A stretch of 64,000 nucleotides of DNA. It comes from Tilletia caries. Lineage: Eukaryota; Basidiomycota; Exobasidiomycetes; Tilletiales; Tilletiaceae. The translations under genes were made by a program, and so were the position numbers. Location of the stretch: assembly GCA_032718865.1 (NCBI GenBank), contig JALUTQ010000028.1, positions 372,001-436,000 of the forward strand, in the 5' to 3' direction. Positions 32,939-63,954 of the stretch are shown piece by piece (position 1 is the first letter of the stretch; each line of letters begins with the position of its first letter). The notes under the pieces are model-generated. The model did no database searches. It was not told where the DNA came from and was given only the letters and a program-made list of their open reading frames with translations.

Positions 32939-35900
32939 CTACCACAGAAGGAACGATTCTGCTCGAGTACGAAGAAGAATCACAGAGAGCTCGTCGAGAA
33001 CATAAGAGAAAGAAGGGACCACCGTACGCCAAAACTTCAACACATCCTGTGTATCCTGCCCTTCGACCCCGTCAAGCGAAAACACCATGGGCTTGAATGC
33101 CGTGGAGGTCTTGCCGAGGTACTTGGCCACCTTTGCCCGGGCCTGCTCCTCGAGGTATTGCTCCGTGCTCCACGTCGCGCCTGCCTTGTTCCCCTTGCCC
33201 CACTCCAAATCTCCCGCTTCCATCACCATCCATTCCCGTGCTCGCTTCGTTGCCAATGATGTGAACGTGATGTCAAATTCCACCACTGATCCCGTTGGTG
33301 CTCCCGTGCCTGCCACACGCAAGTCCGTTCGTTCCTGGCCAAAACGCTCTTCCACTCGAGGCTCGACAATGACTTGGGTGTCTTTTGTCTCCCTCAGCAC
33401 ACGCGCAAAGAGGTCTCGGACCTTATTGTGCCGGCTGGTGTAGTGGTGAACGCGGCTGCGGCAGATGTCGTCGTGGGCGTGCTCGTTCGGGAGGCCGCAT
33501 GAAGGGCATTTCGGATGAGGATGACGAATGAGCGTACGCAGGTGCATGCCGACTTGAACGAGACGATCCGAAAGTCTTGTTTTTGTTGTAAAAGGGATCG
33601 TTGTCATCCAGCGTCGAGACAGGCGCCACGCGTTTGCTCGGACCGTCATTGCCTCTTCTCTTGTGAGCCTAGAGAACAGTTTTTCCTCCATCTGGTCGTA
33701 CATTTGCTTGCAACGGAGACGTTGAGGGAGGAGGTCACGCTCCTCCGTCGTCGTCCCGTCTTCGTACTCCTCCGTCGTCCACTCCACGTCCTCCTCCATC
33801 GCCTCTTCTGCGTCCGACTCGTGATCCTCCCGTTCCAATTCTCGTGCTGCTGGTTGTACCACGGCTACGCATAGAGAGCTGCGGATGAAGAAATCCGCAG
33901 ATTGGCGGGCCGCGGCGCGCGCGTGAGGCGCGAGGTCTTTGAAGCGCGGCACACCGCAGCCGCCGCGAGCTGCAGGAAGAGAAAAGAGAGCCTTGTCGTG
34001 TGCGCCGCGTCGGAGAGAGACATCCCGGATGTCGCGGAGAGCAGAGTGCAGCTTGTGGTCCAGGGGCTGCCACGCGTCACCGATGTCGTCCGTGCGCAAA
34101 TCGTGTTGGACACAGTTGGTGAGGAGGAGGAGAGCGTCCTGTTTCCGGAGGCTGGAGAGCTTGTCGATCTTTTTGGCCTCTCGTTCGATTTCCTCCCGCA
34201 AAAACTGTACCCGAGCCTCTCTTGAACCAATCACCGAGCCGAGAAGGCTCATTCCCTCGGCCTGAATTTCCTCCCGAGACATCTCCACGCTCTTGGAAGT
34301 GTTGAGGTCCAGGCCACAGTTAGTGCCGTCCGCACTCTGCTGTTGGAAAAATTCCTTGACCCGCTCCAGGGTGCCAGCATCCTTTGAAAAGATGTAGCCG
34401 TCGTCCAAATAGAAGACCACTATGCATTCCTCACCTAGGAAGGCTTGGAGGCGCGTAACGAGGTTCCTGATAGCGACAGAGAAAAAGAAAGGGCCAAATG
34501 GGTCGCCTTGTTGGACACCTTGCTCTGCGGTGATGACCTCGACGCGGTCTCCGTCCACGACAAACATCGCGCCTTCGTGACCATATCGCCAGGCCGCAAA
34601 TTTGTAGGCGTCGCGACAGTGCTGGTGTACGCCGTCGTCAATGGCTTCGCGGAACAGCGCGTTGAAGGCGTTGCGGAGGTCGATGGACGTTATGTGCTTG
34701 TAATCCGGAAGCCGTCCTTCAAGCAGCAGATCTGCGAGGCGAATGACTGGTTCCACGCCGCCAGGAGTGCCGACCCCGAGCTGATTGGGGAGCAGGGCCT
34801 CGGAGAGGGGGAAGACCTTGAGGAGGAGCTTTGCGCAGAGGCGGTAGAGGAGCTCGCCGACCGCGATAGGCCGAATGCCCCCGTCCGGTTTGCTGAGCGG
34901 CAAAAGCAAGGCGGAGGATAGAAGCTTGCGGCCGGGGGCGTCTCCGGAAGCCATCTGACGAGTCAGAGCGATGACGAACTCGCAGAACCGGTCGCCCTTG
35001 GTTGCCAGTTGAAGGAGGGGGACGGTCCATCCGCCGATGCCCCCGCTCGTGTCTTTGCGGAAGGTTCGGGCGCTTTTCCGGACCATGTCCGCGTCGATGT
35101 CTTGAAGGGAGAGAGGCGCTGCCAATCCCTTTCTCTTGAAGCGCCTGGCCTTTCGGTTCGGGAACTTGGTCTTCAGGGCCGAGACGGTCTCCTCGTTGAC
35201 TGGAAGAAGTTTGCTGTCGCGGTCCAGAGCGTGGGCTGCCTGTCGAAGCCGTCCGACTCCGATCTTTCGGTGGACTTCGTCGGCCAGATCGGTTTTTCTG
35301 GGCATGCGGGTTCTTTCTGCGGACAAGGGGGTCGGGACAGGGATGTCCTCAGTGTGCATCCGCTGTACCAGCGTGGGGGCGCCAAGGGAGCGGTCGCGGA
35401 GAGGAGAGAGGACCACTTTTGGGGTAACGACGATGTCGAGGAGCTCCTTGAGGCCGCCGTTTGTACTGTACAGGAACGCACCAGCCTTTCGGTCCATCAT
35501 GGCCGTGAAGTCCCTTGATGCGTAGGATGGGAGCATTCCGGGAGCAGCCGGCAAGCGAGCAACGTCCTTGAGAACGTCCAGTGCTTCATCTTCCGTCAGT
35601 GCCGGGCGATCGTTCTGGTAGGGGGACTCGGCGAAGGCATCATCAGCGGCTTCTGGAGCGGGCGGAGCGACGGAAGGGGTGCGCTCCACGGCCGAGGTGA
35701 AAGAAGCAATCGAATCGTTGTCGCTGTTGTCCTCGTCGGCATTGATGCCGATTTCGTCGGGGTTAGGGGGTGCGTCGCGGCTAGCAGCCGCACGCGAAGC
35801 TGCTGTGCGACCGGCGGATGCGCCAGCTGCACAGACATGTGGCGGGGCTGTTCCGGGCGGCGGCAAGCGGAAGTACTTGCCGCAAGAGGAAGCAGGGCAT

Positions 35901-36181
35901 CGAGTGTAGCCGCTGGCGCGGAGGGTTGCCTCCGCAATTGCCAGTCTGGCGACATGTTTGCTGTTGAGGTGGCGGCCTAAGTCGGCGAAGAACCTCCTGT
36001 TCTGGCACGAAGCCCGCCCGGGGCACTGGATGGCCACGGGCCGGGCAAGAGAGGGCTTCTTCTTTCCGGGCAGCTTGCTTGTGTGGCCAAAGGACTTGGA
36101 CTGGATCTGTGGGTAAAAGCGGTACGAGGATGGAAGATACAACTTTGGGTTGAGAGAAGGGGAAACTCGGACACTTTGCAC
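32939..36181 (-). CDS. Reverse transcriptase/RLE protein, downstream ORF (no ATG at its start)
   Basis: About 1,080 codons, uninterrupted. Zinc fingers lie near residues 53-76 (C-x5-C...H-x4-H type) and 95-118 (CPASSC...HVC). The RT domain spans roughly 390-680: LTRQMASGDAPGRK, KPDGGIRPIAV, SIDLRNAFNALF (motif A), QQGDPFGPFFF (motif B) and FYLDDGYIF with catalytic Asp593-Asp594. The C terminus has CPSCGLPNEHAHDDIC (CCHC), then RHN, RTDLRV near 952 and VEFDITF near 970, matching the R2-type endonuclease order. The listed 5' codon is GTG; there is no ATG upstream of the fingers in this frame, so the ORF is 5'-truncated, spliced, or translated by read-through or reinitiation after the upstream ORF. 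Confidence 0.85.
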   Translation of the reverse strand: MQSVRVSPSLNPKLYLPSSYRFYPQIQSKSFGHTSKLPGKKKPSLARPVAIQCPGRASCQNRRFFADLGRHLNSKHVARLAIAEATLRASGYTRCPASSCGKYFRLPPPGTAPPHVCAAGASAGRTAASRAAASRDAPPNPDEIGINADEDNSDNDSIASFTSAVERTPSVAPPAPEAADDAFAESPYQNDRPALTEDEALDVLKDVARLPAAPGMLPSYASRDFTAMMDRKAGAFLYSTNGGLKELLDIVVTPKVVLSPLRDRSLGAPTLVQRMHTEDIPVPTPLSAERTRMPRKTDLADEVHRKIGVGRLRQAAHALDRDSKLLPVNEETVSALKTKFPNRKARRFKRKGLAAPLSLQDIDADMVRKSARTFRKDTSGGIGGWTVPLLQLATKGDRFCEFVIALTRQMASGDAPGRKLLSSALLLPLSKPDGGIRPIAVGELLYRLCAKLLLKVFPLSEALLPNQLGVGTPGGVEPVIRLADLLLEGRLPDYKHITSIDLRNAFNALFREAIDDGVHQHCRDAYKFAAWRYGHEGAMFVVDGDRVEVITAEQGVQQGDPFGPFFFSVAIRNLVTRLQAFLGEECIVVFYLDDGYIFSKDAGTLERVKEFFQQQSADGTNCGLDLNTSKSVEMSREEIQAEGMSLLGSVIGSREARVQFLREEIEREAKKIDKLSSLRKQDALLLLTNCVQHDLRTDDIGDAWQPLDHKLHSALRDIRDVSLRRGAHDKALFSLPAARGGCGVPRFKDLAPHARAAARQSADFFIRSSLCVAVVQPAARELEREDHESDAEEAMEEDVEWTTEEYEDGTTTEERDLLPQRLRCKQMYDQMEEKLFSRLTREEAMTVRANAWRLSRRWMTTIPFTTKTRLSDRLVQVGMHLRTLIRHPHPKCPSCGLPNEHAHDDICRSRVHHYTSRHNKVRDLFARVLRETKDTQVIVEPRVEERFGQERTDLRVAGTGAPTGSVVEFDITFTSLATKRAREWMVMEAGDLEWGKGNKAGATWSTEQYLEEQARAKVAKYLGKTSTAFKPMVFSLDGVEGQDTQDVLKFWRTVVPSFSYVLDELSVILLRTRAESFLLW

Positions 36182-36193
36182 ATCACCCGCCGT

Positions 36194-39100
36194 CTAGACC
36201 AGACGGAAGGTCTCAGCGCGCGTACGAGCAAGGACAACAGAGAGACAAGAGACAACATAGGAGAAAGAAGGAATCAAAGAACGCCATTGCTTGAGAGTAG
36301 CCTTCGCTTGAGTTTGCATAGCTCCCTCAAGCGAGAAGACCAAGGGGACGAATGCCGTTGGAACTGCCCCAGTGTAGTACTGGGACTTGTGCTGCGCCTT
36401 GGCATCGAGGTAGGCGTGTAGCCGCTTCTTCGCGACAGCGCGCATACCCAGCTCCTCGACCTGCAGCAATTGTTCGGCGCGGCCAGGTGCACCCCGAGCC
36501 CCCGCGTTGGTGAGCGACACGAAGGTGATATCGTAGTCGGTGTCGCCGCCACCCCCTGCAGCTGCTGGGCCATGCACACGCCAGTCCGTGCGCCTCATCG
36601 ACTGCGCCTCAATGCGCGGTTCGGGGTTCACCCGGACTCCCTTGATTCGGCGAAGAGCGGCAACATAAATGTATTTTGATGTGTCGTGCCGCACGGTGCG
36701 CCTGTGAGGGCGATCACCGCAGTCGTCGTCGTGACCATGGATGTTCGGGTGCATACAGTCCGGGCAGATGGGACCAATAGCTCGAATGATGGTTCGATTA
36801 TGCAATGTGACTTGCACCTGCCGATCGGACAGAGTTGTGCGCGCGTCGATGGGAAACGTCTGCAGGCACGCAGCTCCAATTCCCTCACCGTTCGCGACCA
36901 CTGTCTGGGCCTCCTCCAATGAAAGTTTTTGACATCATGGAGTGGTCCAGCCGCGCGTACTCGGCCTCCATGCGCTTCGCCTGGGAGATGAGCGGGACGT
37001 CGGCGCCGTCCAAACCGAGAGTCTGATCCAAGAAGAGGGAGGGCATGATCTCTTGAAGCAGCTTGGCGGACGACTGCTCCATCGCGGCGCGTGCGTGAGG
37101 GGCGATGAGGCCGTGCTTCGGAACGCCGAGCCCGCCGAGTCGCAACGGAAGCTGAAAGAGGACCGAGTCGTGCGTCCCGCGGCGCGGCTGAGCCGCACCA
37201 TCCCGGAGTAGGCGCAGAGAGTGATGAAGCGCGCTGTCGACGAGCGCCCACGTGTCATCCAGGCCTTCCGAGGGGAGAAAGCGCTGGAGATGGCGCAGCT
37301 GGTGTTGGAGACTCCTGCGAAGCAGCAGCTGCGCGTCCTGCTTGTGAAGCTGCTGAAGCTGATCCAGCGTCGCCGCGTGCTCGCTCATTTTGCGGAAAAG
37401 AAAAGCTCGGCGCGCGGCGGGTCCCCCGACCAAGCTGCCGAGAAGCTCTTTGCCGTTTTGACGGAGCTGCTCGCCCGACTGTTCCCAGCTTTTGGCTAGG
37501 TTCAGTTCGAGTCCGCGATGCGCTTCGTTCGCTCGTAGCTCGTCGAAAAATTCGTTAACGGCGTCCAGAATCCCTCCACGGTCGGAGAAAATTGTCCAAT
37601 CATCCAGATAGCACAGAATGCGTGCCCGAAAGTCCCGTGCCTCCAGATAATCCATCAGCTGCTCCAGAATGGGCCGCACTCCCACACAGAACAGCAAACC
37701 CGCCAGTGGGTCCCCCTGATAGACTCCATCGGATGCATCAAGGGTGTGAATTTCGCCGTTCGAGGCAATGACCATCACGCCGGCGTGCTCATACCGGTGC
37801 TTAGCCCATCGATAGAGAACCGAAGCGTGCTCGCGAGTGGCGCGCGCAAGGGGTCCTCGATGCACGGAGCCATAGGCATTCTTGAGGTCGATAGAGGCCA
37901 TGTGTGTGAGACCCTCGACCTTGCCGTCTACGACCTGCTGCGCGAGGAAGACAATCGGCTCCACACCTCCAGCGCTTCCCAGACCAAGCTGGCAAGGGAG
38001 GAGCGCACCGTCGAGCGGGGCAGAGGCGAGGATTGTCTTTGCACAGAGACGGTAGATGAGGTCCGGGCAGGCAATGGGACGAACTCCTCCGTCCGATTTC
38101 GCGAGTGGTGTGAGGAGCGACGCCGAGAGCATGGCTCTTCCCGGCGCGGTGCCAGCCACCAATTGGCGAGTGAGGAGCTTGACGAACCGGAGGAAAGTGT
38201 CGTTCTTGAGGGCTAGGTTGAGGAGGGGCTGCGACCAGCCAGATATGCCGCCACTGACATCTGCTGAGAAAGCGCGAAAGCACTCCATGACCGGCAGAGA
38301 TTCCTCGTCAAAATCACACGCCCTTGGTGCTGGTCCGTCGGCAGCAAACGTGGGGCCTGTTCGCGGTGGAAACTTGCTGCGGAGCTGGGCGAGGACCTCC
38401 GGAGTGGCCGGAAGGACCTTGCTTGGGCCACGCAAGAGAGAAGCAGCGCGACGCAGCTGCTGACGCTGGAGGAAGCGGCGGACTCGGCGGTTGAGCGCAG
38501 GCGGGGGCTTTGCCTGGTCGGATGGCGGGCGTGGCTGGATGAGCTGTACAGCGGGATAGGAGATGATGCTCTTGAGGAGGCTGAGGGTGGGATCGCGCCA
38601 GGGAGACAAGGCAATCTTGGGAGCGGCGAGAACGTTGAAGAGCGCGTCTTCGCTGGTGGGATTGGCGATGTAGGATGCTGCCAGTCGTTCACACAGCAAC
38701 ATCCACTCGCTGACGACATGTACTGGGAGCAATCCACGGTGTGCGGGAAGCAGGGCGAGCTGATGGTACCGTTGGGTGGTTTCGACCTCCGGGGCTAGAG
38801 TCGCCGCAGGAGGAGCAGCGGCCGTACTTGAAGACGAAGGGGCGTCAGCTCGAGAGCGGTCAGCGCGGGTTGTGCGCGGCGTGGTGCTGCAATTATGGTT
38901 CCAGGGCCGACCACTGCTTGTAATCCGGAAGCATCCAGAGCACGGAACACAGCGGATGAAGCCGATGGATCGAAGTTCAGCATCGGACAGGGCGGTGGTG
39001 CCCGTGTGGGCCGTGCGGAGGTGATCGCTGATGTTCGTCAGCGCCTGATTGCTGCAACGTGGAGACGGGCAGGTGAGTCCAGAGCGACTGGGTGCTCTCG

Positions 39101-39458
39101 CTGGTGCTCTGGTGGGTGTCGACGGTGGTGATCGATGACGGGGCCGCTTCGCAACTCTGCTGCTACCGGAAGAAAGTCGGCGGCGACGCGAAGCAGGGGA
39201 GGGGGTAAGAGGTGGTCGGTCGATGGTATCGGCATCCTCAATGGGTTCGGTGGCTTCTTCGTTATGGACTGGGCCTATGTTGTTGTGAATGCCACTGTGT
39301 GCCGACTCGTAATCGCTGATGTCTGAACTGGCATCAGTATCGGCGTGGGGCGACGCGAGGGGCGGACCTCGAGGGACACGGAAGGTGAACTGGTGATGTG
39401 CACCTCCAAACGCGCGTGCGGCAGGGCCGCTCGCGCCGTCAGAGCTTTCAGTGGGCAT
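36194..39458 (-). pseudogene. Reverse transcriptase/RLE protein, upstream ORF with one frameshift
   Basis: Starts at a real ATG (39458). Fingers are CPSPRC...HLRTAH and CVPCSGC. RT motifs are SDGGVRPIACPDLIYRLCAK, SIDLKNAYGSVH, YQGDPLAGLLF and CYLDDWTIF. The long frame stops at 36885 but the endonuclease continues in another frame to 36194 with CPDCMHPNIHGHDDDC, VRHDTSKYIY, RRTDWRV and DYDITF. The frames meet at a run of five A on the coding strand (36926-36930 T on the plus strand). One extra A accounts exactly for the shift, since the span is 3,265 nt, one more than a multiple of three. Either a recent inactivating indel, a sequencing error, or a frameshift site. Corrected length would be about 1,087 residues, matching the neighbour. 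Confidence 0.85.
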
Positions 39459-39585
39459 GCTCTGTAAGATGCGTCCTCGGACAGGAACGCGTCCGAGTAG
39501 CTCGCCAAAGTGTTGTTCTTTTCGAGTTCGAAGGGAAGACCATCACCATCACAGCAACGCAAGGACGCGTATCAAGGTCGAGTCA

Positions 39586-55358: not shown

Positions 55359-55367
55359 GCTATAGGG
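55359..55367 (+). repeat. 9-bp target-site duplication, left copy (GCTATAGGG)
   Basis: Identical to 62467-62475 in the same orientation, and each copy directly abuts a TIR. Confidence 0.9.
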
Positions 55368-55511
55368 TAGGCTCGTACCCAGCCCCAACCCCGCGCTCAC
55401 GTGCTTCTGAATTTCATTCGCCAGTTACGGACCGGTCGCCCGAACTTTGACAGTCTTTGACCTCCGCACCGAGGGGCTGGGAACATACTCATTAGTACAC
55501 TAAGAGCAATC
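55368..55511 (+). repeat. Left terminal inverted repeat
   Basis: Three blocks match the right arm: the outer 19 bp (55368-55386), a middle block around GGACCGGTCGCCCGA, and an inner 40-bp block (55472-55511, one mismatch). Outer CCCAGCCCC (55378-55386) and inner GGGGCTGGG (55473-55481) are themselves inverted, so one arm can fold on itself. Confidence 0.9.
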
Positions 55512-55550
55512 CTCTCCTATAGACACGCCACCACCACTATATCAAGCAAA

Positions 55551-57554
55551 ATGCCGATTCCTGGCGCCCAATATGTCAAGCAAAGATGCTTTGAGGTGTT
55601 CAAACATCAAGCATACGACTGACAAGTCGAGGACATCGTTGCAATCCTTCGCGGCAGAGATCTGCTCCTCTCGGCGGGAACAGGATCTGGCAAAAGTCTG
55701 GTCTTCCAGGCGCCAGCACTCTTTCTGGACGACTCATGCTTCGGCGTGATTGTCTCTCCCCTCATTTCACTCATCATGGACCAAGCTGCCACCGCAAACG
55801 CGCTCGGGATACCCGCAGCCGCGATGACGGGTCAAAGTCTGCAGAAAGATCCCACACTTCTGTCCCGGATCGCCAAAGGTCAATACAAACTGGTATTTTC
55901 TTCTCCAGAACTACTGCTCAACAACTCCACTTGGCTTGCTCTGTATCGATCTGGACAACTCGACAAAAAGATTTCGTATATTGCCGTCGACGAAGCTCAC
56001 TGTATCCACACATGGGGCTCAAGCGGATTCCGGATGGACTTCTCCGACCTTGGCAATCTGCGCGTGATGTTTGCCCATGCGCCTATAGCAGCGGTGTCTG
56101 CGACGTTTTCCGCTGAGGTGTGCGCTAGCGTCTATGCCACGCTCCGGTTCGACAAAACAACGTTGAAGGTGGACCGACGGCCACTTGATCGACCTACCTT
56201 GAGCATTGATTGTGCATCGTTTGCATTTCCAGTGGCATCCATCAAGGATCTCCTTTTTTTGCTCCAAGATCGAAACGGCGGCCTCCTGGAGTCGGCAGAC
56301 GACATTCCACAAGCCATCGTCTTCGTCAACAGCCGGGCACAGACTGTGGACGTTGCCGAGTTCTTATCTGCTGCAATAGAACGTGTTTATGGTCATCCCG
56401 GCAGCGGTACTCGCATGGTGCGAAGAGTCGTCAGCTATCACTCACGTACGGACGAAACCACTGCAACAGGCATCCTTCCCTCTCTGCGTGCCGGTGCATT
56501 GAAGATCATAGTTGCTACCGACGTATTTGGGATGGGAATAGACGTAGGTTCTATTCAGCGAGTGGTACAATTCGGTTTGCCGGTAAAACCGACACAGCAG
56601 CTCACCATTGAAACCGTTGTCCAACGTGTAGGCCGAGCGGGTCGTTCCAAAGGAGCACGTGCCCTAGGACTCGTCTTGCTCCCCGCGTGGTGCTTTACCG
56701 ACGGCGAACCACAGGAAAGACAAGCAGAAGAGCGTCAGCAACGTCGTTCGGCAGGACCAGCTCATGGGAAGACTAAGGCTCACCTGGAGGCGGAGCAGAG
56801 ACGCGCCAGACTGCAAACAGCGTTTTCCGACTTCACCTCTACAAAGACATGCTTGCGACGATGGCTTGTCACATTTTTTCAAGCGCCGGACGTCCTAGAC
56901 GAGCATTGCGGGAGCTGTGGAAGCTGTTGGGCGTTGGAAGGGTCACAGAGAGAGTGGACGGTCAACAATAAGCTTCTTCCCCCTCCCTCACCTCCTTCCG
57001 CAAAGGTCCGACACTTACCGAAACGTGTCTCCGCCCAGGTTGCTTCCAAACTCGTCGACATGAGGCGTACAGCCTTCATCTCCCTCCCCTCGGGATCCAT
57101 GGCTCTTCCCACGATGCTATTCCCTGACTCAAAGATAGCCGAGATCGCAAAAGGATGGCGTCAGTACGGAACGTCTGGCGCGGGTTCTTTGCATCGCGCG
57201 CTCGGGAGCCCTCACCTCTCATTTGCCCTGATCCGTACGCGGCATCGCACCCTTGCTCTTCTTGCTGTGGCAGAGGAACAGAAGGTGAAGAAGGAGAGAC
57301 GGGATGCAAGCAGAGTTGCGAGTCAGCAACGACGCCGACAACTTGGTTCTCATTCTGAGACTGAGAACCACTCACATGAAGCACTTGCTCCCATAGCTTC
57401 CGGAAGCTACTCGCTTCCCTCATCGACTTCGTCACCCCTTTCCTCCATAGCTGCTGTTCCTCTTCCTCTCGGCCCATCACAAGCCCCGAACCTGCCTGCG
57501 CCCCCGTCGTCAAAGGGGGACATCATACTCTCATGTTCTGTGCCGCGCAGGTGA
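55551..57554 (+). pseudogene. RecQ-family DNA helicase with in-frame TGA at codon 24
   Basis: ATP-dependent 3'-5' helicase family. From the ATG at 55551 the frame reads FKHQAYD, a TGA (55620-55622), then QVEDIVAILRGRDLLLS directly into Walker A, AGTGSGKS (Lys48). The rest is intact: DEAH at 147-150 (VDEAHCIHTWG, with the RecQ-type aromatic region), VSATF, AIVFVNSR, ATDVFGMGIDVG and QRVGRAGRS. A RecQ zinc-binding module follows (CLRRWLVTFF then EHCGSCGSC). No HRDC domain is seen; the tail is Ser/Pro-rich. The stop occupies the place where a Trp is expected, as a one-base TGG to TGA change. No in-frame intron removes it. The next in-frame ATG lies after Walker A, so translation from it would give an inactive protein. 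Confidence 0.88.
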
Positions 57555-57748
57555 TGGATCGCTTGCCGCTTGTCAACGTGGCAATGCCAACAAAGAGCAC
57601 CACCGTTATTGGCTAACTTTTTGTGTACAAGGGGAAACAATGTATCTGGGTCAGCGTTCCAATGCTACGACTACGCGACTTGATTACTGAGCCTGTAGAG
57701 TGAAGGTAGATGCGGGGAGTGGAATAAGGATTGAAAACGCACCTTGAC

Positions 57749-60700
57749 TCAGTCACCATGTCCTTCCTCTTGGCCCTCTTCTCCGTCTTCATCTCTCGTC
57801 CAGATTGGAGCAAGCTCTTGGTCGTCATACAGCTCGTCATCGTTGGTCTCGAGGAACGGGGTGTCGCCTTGATGCGCTTGGCGGAGACGCTTGTGGACTT
57901 GGATCGCGTCATGTACCCGCTCCCATCCCTGCGCAGTGAGGTTCATTGGCTCGACGACATTGGCAGACTCAGAGAAACAATCCATCACATGTCGCGCCGC
58001 AAGGAGAACATCGGCCTTTAGAGACACAGCAGAATGTGCTGTTGGAGGTTTGGAAGCAGAGAAGAAACCCTCAACCGCGCGTTGGATGGGTGCAAAGGCT
58101 GGGATGTTGGCGCTTACCGCCTGCTCGATGAAGTCGGGCTTTGGAAAGGCTCTGGAGCTGTATTGAACCTTCTCCATTCGATTGTGCTCCTCCTGCACAT
58201 GATCCACTTCTCTCCAGTGTCCTTCCCGTCCACTTGGATTCACCAGCCAATTCCCAATCACCATCTCTCTTAGCTCGGCAGACCACTCGTGCTTCAGACC
58301 GGCCTGCACTCGGATGAGGGCCCTGCCGTAGTGCATCGTTGTCGACGACGCTTGGAACTGCACCGTCCAGTGATCGAGCACGTCAAGAACACGGCCAATG
58401 TCACCGTCGCTCTTGGCAGCGTGGTACTCCTCAAACGCGCAAAGGTCGCTGGCGAGCATCAGAACACTGCGCCTCGATGTCTGTTCCTCCTCCGCGATGT
58501 TGGCGGGGATGAGCTGCTTGCTGACGTCCTCAATCGCAGTCGATATGTCGATCCAAGACTTGATAGAGAGCTCATCGATAGCGTGGATCTTCAGCTGACT
58601 GAGAAGGAGTCCGAGCAAAAGTCCCTGTCGAACTGCATCCGCGAAACGCTCACAGTCGTGAAAGTTCTTCACGTCCTTGGAGACCCGCTTGTGCTTGAGA
58701 ACCTTGACCGCCAGCTGTTGGAGGGATGGCCAATGAGCGCTGAATATCATTCGCAGCGCGGCCATCCTGGCATGAAACAGGTGTGGAACGAGAACGAGGA
58801 AGCGCAAACCATCATACGCTGAGGCTGCGTGGGATCGAAGCTTCTGCGCCCCCAAGAGAAGATTGACGGTGCCGAGATCACCACCATGGATGCACATGCG
58901 GTTGTCGAAATAGGCAGGCTCGAGTTGAAGCATCTTGTCGTAGACGAAGTCGAGATAGTCAATGTTGCCGTCTAGAGTGCCCTCGTCGATCTGTGTTGTA
59001 GGAAGAGCGTGTCTCTTTGACCGTCGCAAGGGGAGAGCGTTGATCGCATCGATGGTGTATTCTGTGCTGCGATCGCTGATGAGGCGGAACGCAGCTTTGA
59101 TCGGCCTCAGATCATCGGCGGCAACTTGGTTGAGGACGCCGGCCAACTGGGACAGTCGGACCTGCGTCCAGTGTTCGTGGCTCCCGGGACGGACAAGATC
59201 CCCTGCGCTCAGCTTCGTGCCCTCCATGCGCCTGATGTCCGTGCTCGTGACCTTATACACCCTATCCAGCTCCCACACTGAGCCACTGGTGACCTTGACA
59301 TAGTTGTCTCGGTTGGCCGCAGATTGGTCTCCAGCGGTCGCAGGGAACTGGCAGTTGTCGTGACAGACCATGAAGTTGATAGTCCCTGGATCCGTGTCCT
59401 TGACTAACTGACGAACCGCTAGCAAACGGGACGTCGACAGCTCGCGGAGGTGACGCGTGGTTTGCATGTGGGAGATTGATAGGGCCGCAGCGTTCAAGAC
59501 CGTGTAAACTCGCTTTGGCAGACCGGAGGCGTATGCCCACAGACCAACGAGCGTTTGAAATCGATTGAATTTCCGATTTCTCCATGCCTTTAGCTGCAGA
59601 AGGACGAGGGAAGGCTGGAAATCGTTCGAATTGCAGCAGTGAGAGAGGAGATTATGCAGGCGTGGGCATTTTGTTCTCGTCGTGGTCATGATGCTGCTGA
59701 GGTTCAAGGATTGTAGATCCGCATTGGTGCAGTTGAGAACGTCTACGGAGACAATCTTGTCATCGTCAAGGTTTGCAAGCTCGTCATCAGCGATGCTTTT
59801 GGCTCGGCCGATCACCCAATCCCGGAGAAAGTCTCTCTCATGCGCCTCCGCTATGCTCCACAATCGATCGAGGACAGGGAGCGCCTTGCGTTCTCGGCAA
59901 AAGAGTCTCGCACTTGATTGGCAATGTTGAATGGTCAGGTATTCGATGAAAAAGTCGCCGATGGTGTCGAAGCCATTGAGCTTGATGGTCTCAAGGCAGG
60001 CTTGCATGCGTTGCTCGCGAGCGGGAAGAGGCTGCGCGGGTATCGATGCAGAAGGGGGGAGAGGTGAAGGCGACCCAAGCGCACACGGAACCGCAGCAGA
60101 CGGTTGTGGCGGAGAAGGCGACAATGCGCGCGCACGAGATCCCAGCGCAGATGACGGCGGAGAGGGTCGAGATGATGCGCGCGCAAGCGAAGCTGGTGCA
60201 GAGATGAAGGAAGGCGAGGGGCACAGAGCAGATGAGAGCGGTGCAGCTGGTGGTGGCAATGCGCGAGCACGGGATCCTGCCGCAGACGAAGACGAAAGTG
60301 CTGAGGATGGCGACGGCTGAGGTGGTAACGATGTGCGTATACCGGGCCGTAATGATGACAGCAGTGACGTGGGCGATGCGACTGCACGGCGGTGCAAGGT
60401 TGATAGCGGCGCCGGAGATGATGCACGCGCACGAGAGTCTACTGTGCCTGACGATGGCAGAGGCGGAGATGATACGCGCGCACGGTGGCGCGGTGCTGAT
60501 GGCGGTGGCGGAGATGATGCGCTCGTTGCCGTTGCCGGTGGCGGAGGTGGAAATGGTGAGCGCCTTCCGAGACGTGATGCGGACGGTAGCGGGTGAGGTG
60601 AAGATGGTGCGAGCACAGGTGTGGACGATGCTGGCGACGGTGGCAGCAACGGGGACGATGCGTGTGCACGGCGCCGCATTGTTGATTGTGGCAGCGGGGA

Positions 60701-61054
60701 TGGACGTGGACCAGATGACGGCAGCGCAGGAGGTGGTGGTGCGCATGCACGGTGTAGCGGTGTGAATGGCGGCTGCGGAGGTGTGGATGATGCTGCCGAG
60801 TCAAAGCCCGACAATCGACCAGCTCTGGGTGCCGACACAGAAGAAGGAGTGCGCGCCAAAGGTGTCAGAGCAGGACGCCCACGAAGTTGCGTGCTTGCGT
60901 CGGCTGCTGCTGTCGCTGCAGACAGCCGACGTATTGACACCAGCTCCGAGATCGAGGCTGTGAACGATTCCGACGGAGTATACATAGACGACGAGGTTCG
61001 CACGCGCTTTGTAGATCCCTCCTCATTCTCGGAGGACTTGCGGTGTCGACTCAT
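57749..61054 (-). CDS. Large DUF6589-like protein, candidate transposase
   Basis: 1,101 residues from the ATG at 61054 (MSRHRKSSENEEGS). Residues ~40-390 are a Ser/Pro/Arg-rich region built from imperfect repeats around SRARALSPSPP. The rest (~395-1095) is globular and resembles the DUF6589 proteins common in basidiomycetes, which have no assigned function. Acidic residues in a DDE-like order stand out: Asp566 in FMVCHDNCQ, Asp726 in CIHGGDLGTV and Glu955/956 in HVQEEHNRMEK. That this is an RNase H-like transposase is my inference from its place inside a TIR element. The final 30 residues are acidic (DDELYDDQE, DEDGEEGQEE). Upstream exons may exist between 61.3 and 62.25 kb. Convergent with the helicase. 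Confidence 0.75.
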   Translation of the reverse strand: MSRHRKSSENEEGSTKRVRTSSSMYTPSESFTASISELVSIRRLSAATAAADASTQLRGRPALTPLARTPSSVSAPRAGRLSGFDSAASSTPPQPPFTPLHRACAPPPPALPSSGPRPSPLPQSTMRRRAHASSPLLPPSPASSTPVLAPSSPHPLPSASRLGRRSPFPPPPPATATSASSPPPPSAPRHRARVSSPPLPSSGTVDSRARASSPAPLSTLHRRAVASPTSLLSSLRPGIRTSLPPQPSPSSALSSSSAAGSRARALPPPAAPLSSALCPSPSFISAPASLARASSRPSPPSSALGSRARALSPSPPQPSAAVPCALGSPSPLPPSASIPAQPLPAREQRMQACLETIKLNGFDTIGDFFIEYLTIQHCQSSARLFCRERKALPVLDRLWSIAEAHERDFLRDWVIGRAKSIADDELANLDDDKIVSVDVLNCTNADLQSLNLSSIMTTTRTKCPRLHNLLSHCCNSNDFQPSLVLLQLKAWRNRKFNRFQTLVGLWAYASGLPKRVYTVLNAAALSISHMQTTRHLRELSTSRLLAVRQLVKDTDPGTINFMVCHDNCQFPATAGDQSAANRDNYVKVTSGSVWELDRVYKVTSTDIRRMEGTKLSAGDLVRPGSHEHWTQVRLSQLAGVLNQVAADDLRPIKAAFRLISDRSTEYTIDAINALPLRRSKRHALPTTQIDEGTLDGNIDYLDFVYDKMLQLEPAYFDNRMCIHGGDLGTVNLLLGAQKLRSHAASAYDGLRFLVLVPHLFHARMAALRMIFSAHWPSLQQLAVKVLKHKRVSKDVKNFHDCERFADAVRQGLLLGLLLSQLKIHAIDELSIKSWIDISTAIEDVSKQLIPANIAEEEQTSRRSVLMLASDLCAFEEYHAAKSDGDIGRVLDVLDHWTVQFQASSTTMHYGRALIRVQAGLKHEWSAELREMVIGNWLVNPSGREGHWREVDHVQEEHNRMEKVQYSSRAFPKPDFIEQAVSANIPAFAPIQRAVEGFFSASKPPTAHSAVSLKADVLLAARHVMDCFSESANVVEPMNLTAQGWERVHDAIQVHKRLRQAHQGDTPFLETNDDELYDDQELAPIWTRDEDGEEGQEEGHGD
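60050..60850 (-). repeat. Degenerate minisatellite in the DUF6589-like gene
   Basis: Repeats of about 60-90 bp with a shared core (plus strand GATGATGCGCGCGCACG and variants) encode the Arg-Ala-Ser-Ser-Pro-rich part of the protein. Copies are diverged and unevenly spaced. Confidence 0.6.
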
Positions 61055-62321
61055 AAGTTTGGACTGAATAGAAATGGCCCCTAGACATATTAGCAACAGT
61101 AGGATACCGGGACACGACGGGGTAGCCACTATATGCATTGACGACATACTCACAAAGTCACAATATATCACACTGAAAAATCGTATAAGAGCCCCGTCAC
61201 GTTTGGCAAGCGCGACGACAGAAGCTGAAAGCCTGAAAGCAAAGGCGAGGTGGAATTAGTAAATGTACATGGATATTGATGCAGTAATTATTCCGCATCA
61301 CTCACTGCTTCCGTCTGAAGTCTGACTCTGAGATCGGAAATTCTGACCGAAGGTCGAGCCCGGGCGACGTGACTGGGACAAAAAGCGCCGACCAGAGAGG
61401 TGTCTGCCAAACAACGTCTCACCGCTCACGGTGCACCTCACTCCGGCACCAGCAGTCCAGCACGCAGCAATCAGATTTAATAGATCACTCGTCACTGGAG
61501 AATGAACAGAGGAGAAATGGCTTGTCAGTGACACGACCAGCAGGGAATAGCAAACAGCAGAAAACGAGAAAAGCCAACCCTGAAAGCGAAATTGGAATGA
61601 GGATAGTACTGACCAGTCTCCAGTTACGACGCAAATCCACCTCTCCTTAGCCCTTGCGCCGTGCTGTCGGCGGTACCTGATGCTGCGGTCTGGAGAGATT
61701 GAAAATGAAGAAAGATTTGGTGTCAGAACAAGGCTACAAGGTGGAGGAATCAGCAGACAGCAGGTGGGAGAAGATGGAGATACATACCGGTGTTGTTCAC
61801 AGTCTGACTCCAGATATCTGATGACTGGCGACTGCTCCTGCCGCCTGCCTGCTTGATGAGTGATGTTGCCTGAGCCTCAAGATGAGGAGAGATTGAGCAG
61901 TGAGCTGCGCCGGTCGAGGCGAGGAGTGAGGAGCCGGCGGGGAGCAGAACGCAGGGACGAGAGAGCAGGAAGCAGTCGGCGGGATCGGCAGACTTGAGGC
62001 AACGACCGGATGAGGTTGCAACTGCGAGCAGCGAGACTGTACGCGCGCGAAGAGTAGCAAAGGTGAAAGAGGACAAAGCAGTGAGAAGATGTGGTCAAGC
62101 AAGGGGCAAGCAACGAGCAGCAAGACGGATCGGAACTCACGGAGCAGTCAGCAGAGCTGGAGGCTGGAGCTGAAGCTGAGCGAGCCAAGGACTTGTGTGG
62201 ATCGATGTGGTGAATGCCTTGCTTGGTGAGGATGGATGGTGGTGCGGTGTCCATCTACTAATGGAGATTTGCTCGGAGCTGCTCCCAGCCAAACAAGTAG
62301 TAGAATCCGGCTGTACTAGGA
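61055..62321 (-). other. Element-internal leader region, possible 5' exons of the DUF6589-like gene
   Basis: Reading the minus strand from the right TIR there is an ATG at 62254 followed by 39 codons and a consensus donor (GTGAGTTCC at about 62136). Several AG acceptors and GT donors follow between 61.3 and 61.85 kb, and a short coding-like frame (DLLNLIAACWTAGAGVR, around 61420-61480). I could not assemble a unique spliced model to the ATG at 61054. Confidence 0.4.
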
Positions 62322-62466
62322 GATTGCTCTTAGTGTACTAATGAGTACGTTCCCAGCCCCTCCTGAGGAGGCTCAGAGACTGAAAGTCGGGCGACCGGTC
62401 CGCAACAGGCGAATGAATTTCATATGTTAGCACGAGGCCTCAGTGCAGGGGCTGGGTACGAGCCTA
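62322..62466 (-). repeat. Right terminal inverted repeat
   Basis: Reverse complement of the left arm with the same three conserved blocks; the inner 40-bp block is 62322-62361 and the outer 19 bp are 62448-62466. The segment between blocks is more diverged than the blocks. Confidence 0.9.
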
Positions 62467-62475
62467 GCTATAGGG
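62467..62475 (+). repeat. 9-bp target-site duplication, right copy (GCTATAGGG)
   Basis: Same sequence and orientation as 55359-55367. Confidence 0.9.
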
Positions 62476-63184: not shown

Positions 63185-63954
63185 TCAATTCCGTGACGCA
63201 GACGAGTGGCTCGCATGCCACGCTCCTGAACCACTGGGTCCATGATGCGAAGAGGCATGGTGGCCTGCCTGGCTATAGCCAGCCGGCCCTTGCTGCTGCG
63301 CCTGTGAATGCCGATGGTAATCACCGCTACCGCCGCCGCCGCTTCCTCCACCACCATTGCCGTGGCTCGTAGCTGAGGATCTGGTTGAGTAGCTATCGGT
63401 GCTACTTCCTCCACCTGCCATTGGTTGCGGTGCGGTAACAGATCGCGAATGTTGTTGCGGCTGTTGCTGCGTTTTGCTGCTGGTGCTTGTCGATCCTTCC
63501 GATGTCGCAGCTCGCTCTCTCGTTCCTTGCTCTTCCTTCTTAGCCTGGGCCTTGGCCTTGGCTCGACGATTCTGGAACCAAATCTGCAATATTCCGAATT
63601 TATTGTCAGACAATGTGCTGTGGACCTGGACGTGGTGTGAATGATGACTAACCTGCACTGCACGGCCGGGCATGTCCAACTGTTGCGCCAACGCCTTCCT
63701 GACAGCAGCGTTGGGCTTGGGATTCTCTGTGAAAGCGGCGGAAGGAAGCATAAGCCAACCAGTACATTATCAAGAAGGATGCAATTAACTTACCCTTAAA
63801 AGTACCCTCCAGTACGCGGAATTGAGTCTTCGTTGTGCGACGACGGTGCTTGACCTCGAACGGATTCAGATAGTGGATGGCCGGGCCAGCCGGGTGGCTA
63901 AAGCCACCGTATGCACCAGGTGCACCTGGTACCGGCGCAGCAGCAGCGTTCACC
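63185..63954 (-). CDS. Homeodomain transcription factor, N terminus beyond window
   Basis: Exons 63794-63954, 63653-63726 and 63185-63583 are visible; an acceptor (CATTTCAG) at 63955-63962 shows that at least one more exon lies past the right edge. The homeodomain is split by two introns: HRRRTTKTQFRVLEGTFKG / ENPKPNAAVRKALAQQLDMPGRAVQ / IWFQNRRAKAKAQAKK. Helix 3 WFQNRRAK is complete, and the spacing is that of a typical 60-residue domain without the three-residue TALE insert. It looks like the Pho2/Phx1-type homeobox proteins of fungi rather than mating-type HD1/HD2. The C-terminal region is Gln/Ser/Gly-rich and ends in a His/Ser-rich tail. 211 residues are in view. Confidence 0.9.

Follow-up and report, generated by a model that had tools for sequence, protein, structure and literature searches.

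The genome of Tilletia caries contains, within a 64,000-nucleotide stretch of contig JALUTQ010000028.1 (here called the window), a RecQ-type helicase gene and a gene for a DUF6589 protein that lie between inverted repeats, which raises the question of whether the two genes make up a transposon and, if so, of what kind. The results presented here establish the element in the window as a mobile element, a genuine transposon; its simplest filing is most likely AcademH, in the Academ superfamily, by published description rather than by transposase sequence. The element spans 7,099 bp (window positions 55368-62466), with inverted ends, a target duplication, and two convergent genes. Its outer 19-mer, TAGGCTCGTACCCAGCCCC, at 55368-55386 on the forward strand returns as an inverted copy at 62448-62466 with 0 mismatches, whereas 100 shuffles gave a mean of 0 such matches. 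These 19-mers are the outermost parts of terminal inverted repeats of about 145 bp at 55368-55511 (+) and 62322-62466 (-), which share 83% identity in a pairwise alignment (element positions 1-144 against 7099-6955). A 9-bp direct repeat, GCTATAGGG, flanks the element perfectly at 55359-55367 and 62467-62475. The inverted repeats and flanking repeat given in a preliminary description of the locus were accordingly recovered. Its statement that two convergent genes fill the interior was confirmed, the helicase frame (+) and the DUF6589 frame (-) facing each other inside the element, with two reservations: the helicase gene of this copy is interrupted early by a stop, and about 1 kb of the element (61256-62321) is without an assigned gene.

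The helicase gene (55551-57554, +) encodes a RecQ-type helicase of superfamily 2, with an open frame of 643 amino acids at 55623-57554 that matches PF00270 (E value of 2e-20) and PF00271 (9e-15) in Pfam. Its best NCBIfam match is recQ_fam (1e-49), but this lies under the curated cut-off of that family; its best match among PDB sequences is a RecQ protein (1e-30), and the RecQ zinc-binding domain gave only a subthreshold match in Pfam. An in-frame TGA (55620-55622) stands between a plausible ATG at 55551 and the remaining frame. A protein-database search (E value of at most 1e-10; 7994 candidates scored) gave 1305 matches, the best 120 of which included no fungus; the organisms named were bacteria, a diatom, and plants. 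In viral contigs, no relatives were encoded by 420 pattern-matching stretches.

The DUF6589 frame (57749-61255, -; 1168 amino acids) matches PF20231 with an E value of 2e-67; no other Pfam family was found up to an E value of 0.1, and neither PDB sequences nor NCBIfam gave a match. Its N-terminal part (60097-60783, -) is repetitive and rich in Pro, Ser, and Ala, with imperfect repeats of 30 to 60 nucleotides. The predicted fold resembles those of DDE transposases, the conserved acidic residues forming a D-D-E triad (D633, 59357-59359; D793, 58877-58879; E1022, 58190-58192) with a large helical insert predicted after the second D and before the E. Foldseek, run on the predicted model, returned only matches with E values of 0.016 or above, with RAG1, ISCth4, and the P element among the first rows and unrelated membrane proteins lower down; VIA-align gave a cleaner picture, as a re-ranking of Foldseek's list only. 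The predicted fold and the conserved triad indicate that helicase-bearing AcademH elements very probably have the DUF6589 protein as their DDE transposase, in line with the role that the preliminary description had assigned to it. PF20231 is present in many basidiomycete proteins (204 matches), including proteins of Coprinopsis cinerea and Schizophyllum commune, and the closest of three DUF6589 proteins from a first search, with 95% identity over 95% of the query part, is from Tilletia controversa (Ustilaginomycotina). A DUF6589 protein of Ganoderma boninense carries the UniRef name PRP28 RNA helicase, yet only PF20231 is listed for it; the name is possibly misleading.

Searches of the whole genome (38.1 Mb in 40 contigs, denoted by C-numbers below) located further copies with the same ends, the absence of which would have spoken against the preliminary description. 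The exact 19-mer occurred 16 times, compared with 0 times for its reversed control, and 12 of these occurrences paired into six closed elements, including the window copy. One of them, C27:381612-389168, is a second two-gene copy, whose 98.9% identity to the window copy breaks off 13 bp short of the right end; four are shorter (1.58 kb on C3, 4.39 kb on C5, and 1.23 kb and 5.56 kb on C32) and had no match in either the helicase or the DUF6589 genome search. The 9-bp duplication was perfect in four of the six, agreed at 8 of 9 bases in C27, and had one inserted base in C32:1255236. In the C27 copy, the helicase frame is uninterrupted over 697 amino acids, unlike that of the window copy, and the DUF6589 frame is open over 1,170 amino acids; therefore, an intact-looking copy exists. 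When up to three mismatches were allowed, 29 places were found in the genome and 16 in the reversed control, and for this reason inexact matches were mostly disregarded, with the exact ones and two with one or two mismatches being kept.

Several smaller observations concern this family. The C27 copy has about 450 extra bp (approximately 388706-389155) close to its right end, separated from the terminus by about 13 bp. The elements at C3:1001736-1003316 (1.58 kb) and C32:1071241-1072471 (1.23 kb) share these ends, each with a perfect 9-bp duplication, and match the window element at its termini and, with about 80% identity, in the adjoining right part; judged by sequence, they are nonautonomous derivatives. 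Two right ends on C3 (1684081 and 1695349), 11 kb apart and with no exact left end nearby, are both bordered on the outside by the same 14 bp, CCCCAAGCAAAGTT, which suggests duplication of a stretch of DNA. A helicase fragment at C22:203341-204007 (94% identity to the window helicase; no DUF6589 place within 6 kb) is probably a decayed remnant.

The pairing of the two genes extends well beyond this family. The helicase search of the genome gave 64 rows, merged into 56 places, and the search with the DUF6589 Pfam family gave 75 rows, merged into 48 places; these counts are lower bounds because the genome searches score best candidates only. A RecQ place lay within 6 kb of 42 of the 48 DUF6589 places, where 0.84 would be expected under a uniform spread. 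The orientation was convergent in 41 of the 42 pairs (any segmental duplicates being counted with the rest), each with its own helicase place, and the sole tandem pair uses the helicase place of a convergent pair. No DUF6589 place was found within 6 kb of 15 of the 56 helicase places, some of which may be host RecQ genes.

Inverted ends together with 9- or 10-bp duplications were present in 10 of the 12 two-gene copies with adequate flanks (window copy included). Seven have 9 bp, namely, those in the window (55368-62466) and at C27:381612 (one mismatch), C6:243927-250768, C13:235031-241299, C9:363898-371571, C32:761915-769103, and C36:842721-850535; three have 10 bp (C28:1119410-1126267, C36:1019637-1026495, and C25:113545-120569). 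C23:142959-146470 and C4:160990-164381, the latter truncated and related to the C32 family, showed no inverted ends with a duplication. For four further pairs with only 1.1 to 1.5 kb of flank, the scan gave no ends, and 25 of the 41 convergent pairs lay outside it. The ends begin with TAG in the window family, the C28/C36/C6 group, C25, and C13, where the outer 19 to 22 bp are perfect or have one mismatch; they begin with TTG in C9 and TAA in the C32 family, and the inverted ends are weaker in C9 (32/45) and C32 (27/45). Two candidates for ends were discarded: C27:381661-388665, which proved to be internal repeats, and a second candidate in C25 with three mismatches and an imperfect duplication. 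The cooccurrence of RecQ and DUF6589 genes between matching ends, which the preliminary description had proposed as a check, is therefore borne out both by the pairing of 42 of 48 places and by the bounded copies.

The scan, which allowed up to three mismatches and up to one in the duplication, was positive in 8 of 15 copies. As a control, the left flank of one copy was combined with the right flank of another in 206 ordered pairs (210 minus 4 for C28/C36) under limits stricter than those of the scan (at most two mismatches in 14, with the duplication required to be exact). Six pairs were positive, all with palindromic "duplications" and involving related copies in opposite orientation. Under the same limits, C6, C9, C13, C25, C28, and C36:1019637 pass; C27 and C32 fail with their true ends. 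Duplication lengths of 9 and 10 bp were scanned, with 8 bp added later; because few lengths were scanned, an observed length can be taken as independent of this choice only where the ends are fixed by homology or by a long near-perfect repeat, which holds for the window family, C28/C36/C6, C32/C36:842721, C25, and C13 but not for C9.

Comparison of related copies points to recent movement. The copies in C28 and C36:1019637 align with 99.6% identity over the whole 6.86-kb element, from its first base to its last, and the alignment ends there; they lie on different contigs and have differing 10-bp duplications. The C6 copy has 98% identity to both, but a 9-bp duplication; therefore, the duplications of a single family can be either 9 or 10 bp long. 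Likewise, the copies at C32 and C36:842721 end at the same point and differ in their duplications. Between the diverged copies in C28 and C25, the nonsynonymous (dN) and synonymous (dS) divergences, with frames taken from stop to stop, were 0.29 and 1.63 for the helicase (560 codons; dN/dS of about 0.18) and 0.19 and 1.95 for the DUF6589 domain (341 codons; dN/dS of about 0.10); both proteins therefore look constrained, although the ratios are rough because dS is near saturation. Among close copies, the codon differences between C23 and C27 comprised 6 synonymous and 14 nonsynonymous ones in the helicase and 1 and 6, respectively, in the DUF6589 domain. For C28 and C36, dN and dS were 0.003 and 0.004 (helicase) and 0.009 and 0.005 (DUF6589); for C28 and C6, they were 0.058 and 0.069 (helicase) and 0.006 and 0.028 (DUF6589). 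These close-copy values fit drift after insertion and give constraint no support.

AcademH was reportedly introduced by Kojima in 2020 (Mob DNA 11:15). The preliminary description had taken the element for a new class of transposon, outside any described superfamily; this claim does not hold. AcademH elements are described in a passage of PMC10045372 as encoding a helicase and making 9- or 10-bp duplications, and AcademX elements are described there as encoding a nuclease and making 3- or 4-bp duplications, the length being tied to which of the two is encoded. According to the relevant part of PMC6416283, most fungal Academ copies have recognizable domains such as PF00270 and recQ_fam. The elements described here share with AcademH the helicase, the 9- or 10-bp duplications (10 of 12 copies), terminal inverted repeats, and, as predicted for DUF6589, a DDD/E transposase. 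AcademH is also reported, in an excerpt of PMC10799480, from Basidiomycota, Ascomycota, and Mucoromycota; it is called low-copy there, a status exceeded by the 41 convergent pairs found here. If the element is AcademH, AcademX belongs to the same superfamily and differs in its nuclease and short duplications. The passages of PMC8290104 and PMC12210899 that mention Academ or refer to the AcademH paper give no anatomy. Our literature search, which had most subscription papers outside its reach, found no paper that names DUF6589 and none that combines Tilletia, Academ, and transposon. A helicase-bearing kind of transposon is thus already published; what is added here is a likely function for DUF6589, together with a set of young two-gene copies in one genome.

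The alternative that survives best, although we judge it unlikely, is that DUF6589 represents a DDE superfamily apart from Academ that was paired independently with RecQ. It would then be a third lineage of DDE transposons with a helicase, in addition to AcademH and KolobokH, and one in which duplications of 9 and of 10 bp arise within the same family. This would fit a filing of DUF6589 under AcademH that is by description rather than by sequence, and the lack of its name in the literature searched and of PDB-sequence or NCBIfam matches. However, a helicase together with 9- or 10-bp duplications is how AcademH is described in the passage of PMC10045372, and recQ_fam, reported for fungal Academ copies in that of PMC6416283, is also the family that this helicase matches best in NCBIfam.

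We consider it highly likely that this Tilletia-like genome harbors a two-gene AcademH transposon with DUF6589 as the DDE transposase. The DUF6589 protein would be an RNase H-fold enzyme with a long helical insert between the second D and the E; it would bind the inverted ends and either excise the element or nick and copy it. On joining, the two target strands would be cut at points 9 to 10 bp apart, roughly a turn of the helix, and the target duplication would result from filling of the gaps. More tentatively, the RecQ-type helicase might be an obligatory partner, with an unwinding or remodeling activity directed at the element ends, at the product of strand transfer, or at the donor site. 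That the element is a true AcademH transposon with the helicase as dispensable cargo, outside the transposition machinery, seems improbable to us: the early in-frame stop in the window copy and the unconstrained look of the differences between close copies would suit such cargo, whereas the RecQ place beside 42 of 48 DUF6589 places and the dN/dS of about 0.18 between diverged copies would not.

KolobokH is a poorer candidate still, with very little probability of accounting for the element. Kolobok elements of this type, known from fungi, bear RecQ according to the available part of PMC9587614, so that both are DDD/E transposons of fungi that carry a RecQ helicase, and one Kolobok is reported to have RecQ on the complementary strand. 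However, the duplications of the Kolobok superfamily are given in that source as TTAA (4 bp), compared with 9 to 10 bp of varied sequence here, and the helicase, a convergent gene in the present element, is placed there downstream of the transposase domain. A final, almost negligible possibility is that host RecQ and DUF6589 genes became adjacent by accident or were captured by chance in a repeat; RecQ-type places are indeed common (56, of which 15 lack a DUF6589 place within 6 kb), but this is refuted for the examined copies by 41 convergent pairs spread over many contigs, by ends that match while the target duplications differ, and by alignments of near-identical copies that stop at the inverted repeats.

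Other superfamilies were set aside. The hAT (Hermes), P-element, and RAG1/Transib transposases resemble DUF6589 in its predicted fold, a DDE core in which a large helical insert precedes the E, and they differ in having no sequence match to it and in the helicase partner found here. The duplications of hAT elements are 8 bp long; those here are 9 to 10 bp, and no hAT Pfam domain was matched up to an E value of 0.1. For MULE/MuDR, the 9-bp duplications alone would be compatible; the MULE transposase domain, PF10551 in the relevant passage of PMC8290104, was not matched up to the same E value. Helitrons likewise encode a helicase and are characterized by an HUH nuclease (PMC12730594, in part); neither protein had an HUH/Rep Pfam match up to an E value of 0.1, and inverted ends, duplications, and a DDE-type protein are present.

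Elsewhere in the window, two long frames with RVT_1 matches (32942-36193 and 36888-39542, both -; E values of 4e-17 and 3e-13) are probably further transposable-element genes. Part of a homeodomain gene lies at 63185-63766 (-), about 0.7 kb past the right end of the element.

In Pfam, DUF6589 carries the label of unknown function; very probably, helicase-bearing AcademH elements use it as their transposase. If this is true, such genes need to be masked as transposons rather than counted as host genes. The presence of near-identical copies in one genome, in a family whose duplications can be 9 or 10 bp long, makes the role of the helicase in transposition easier to test.
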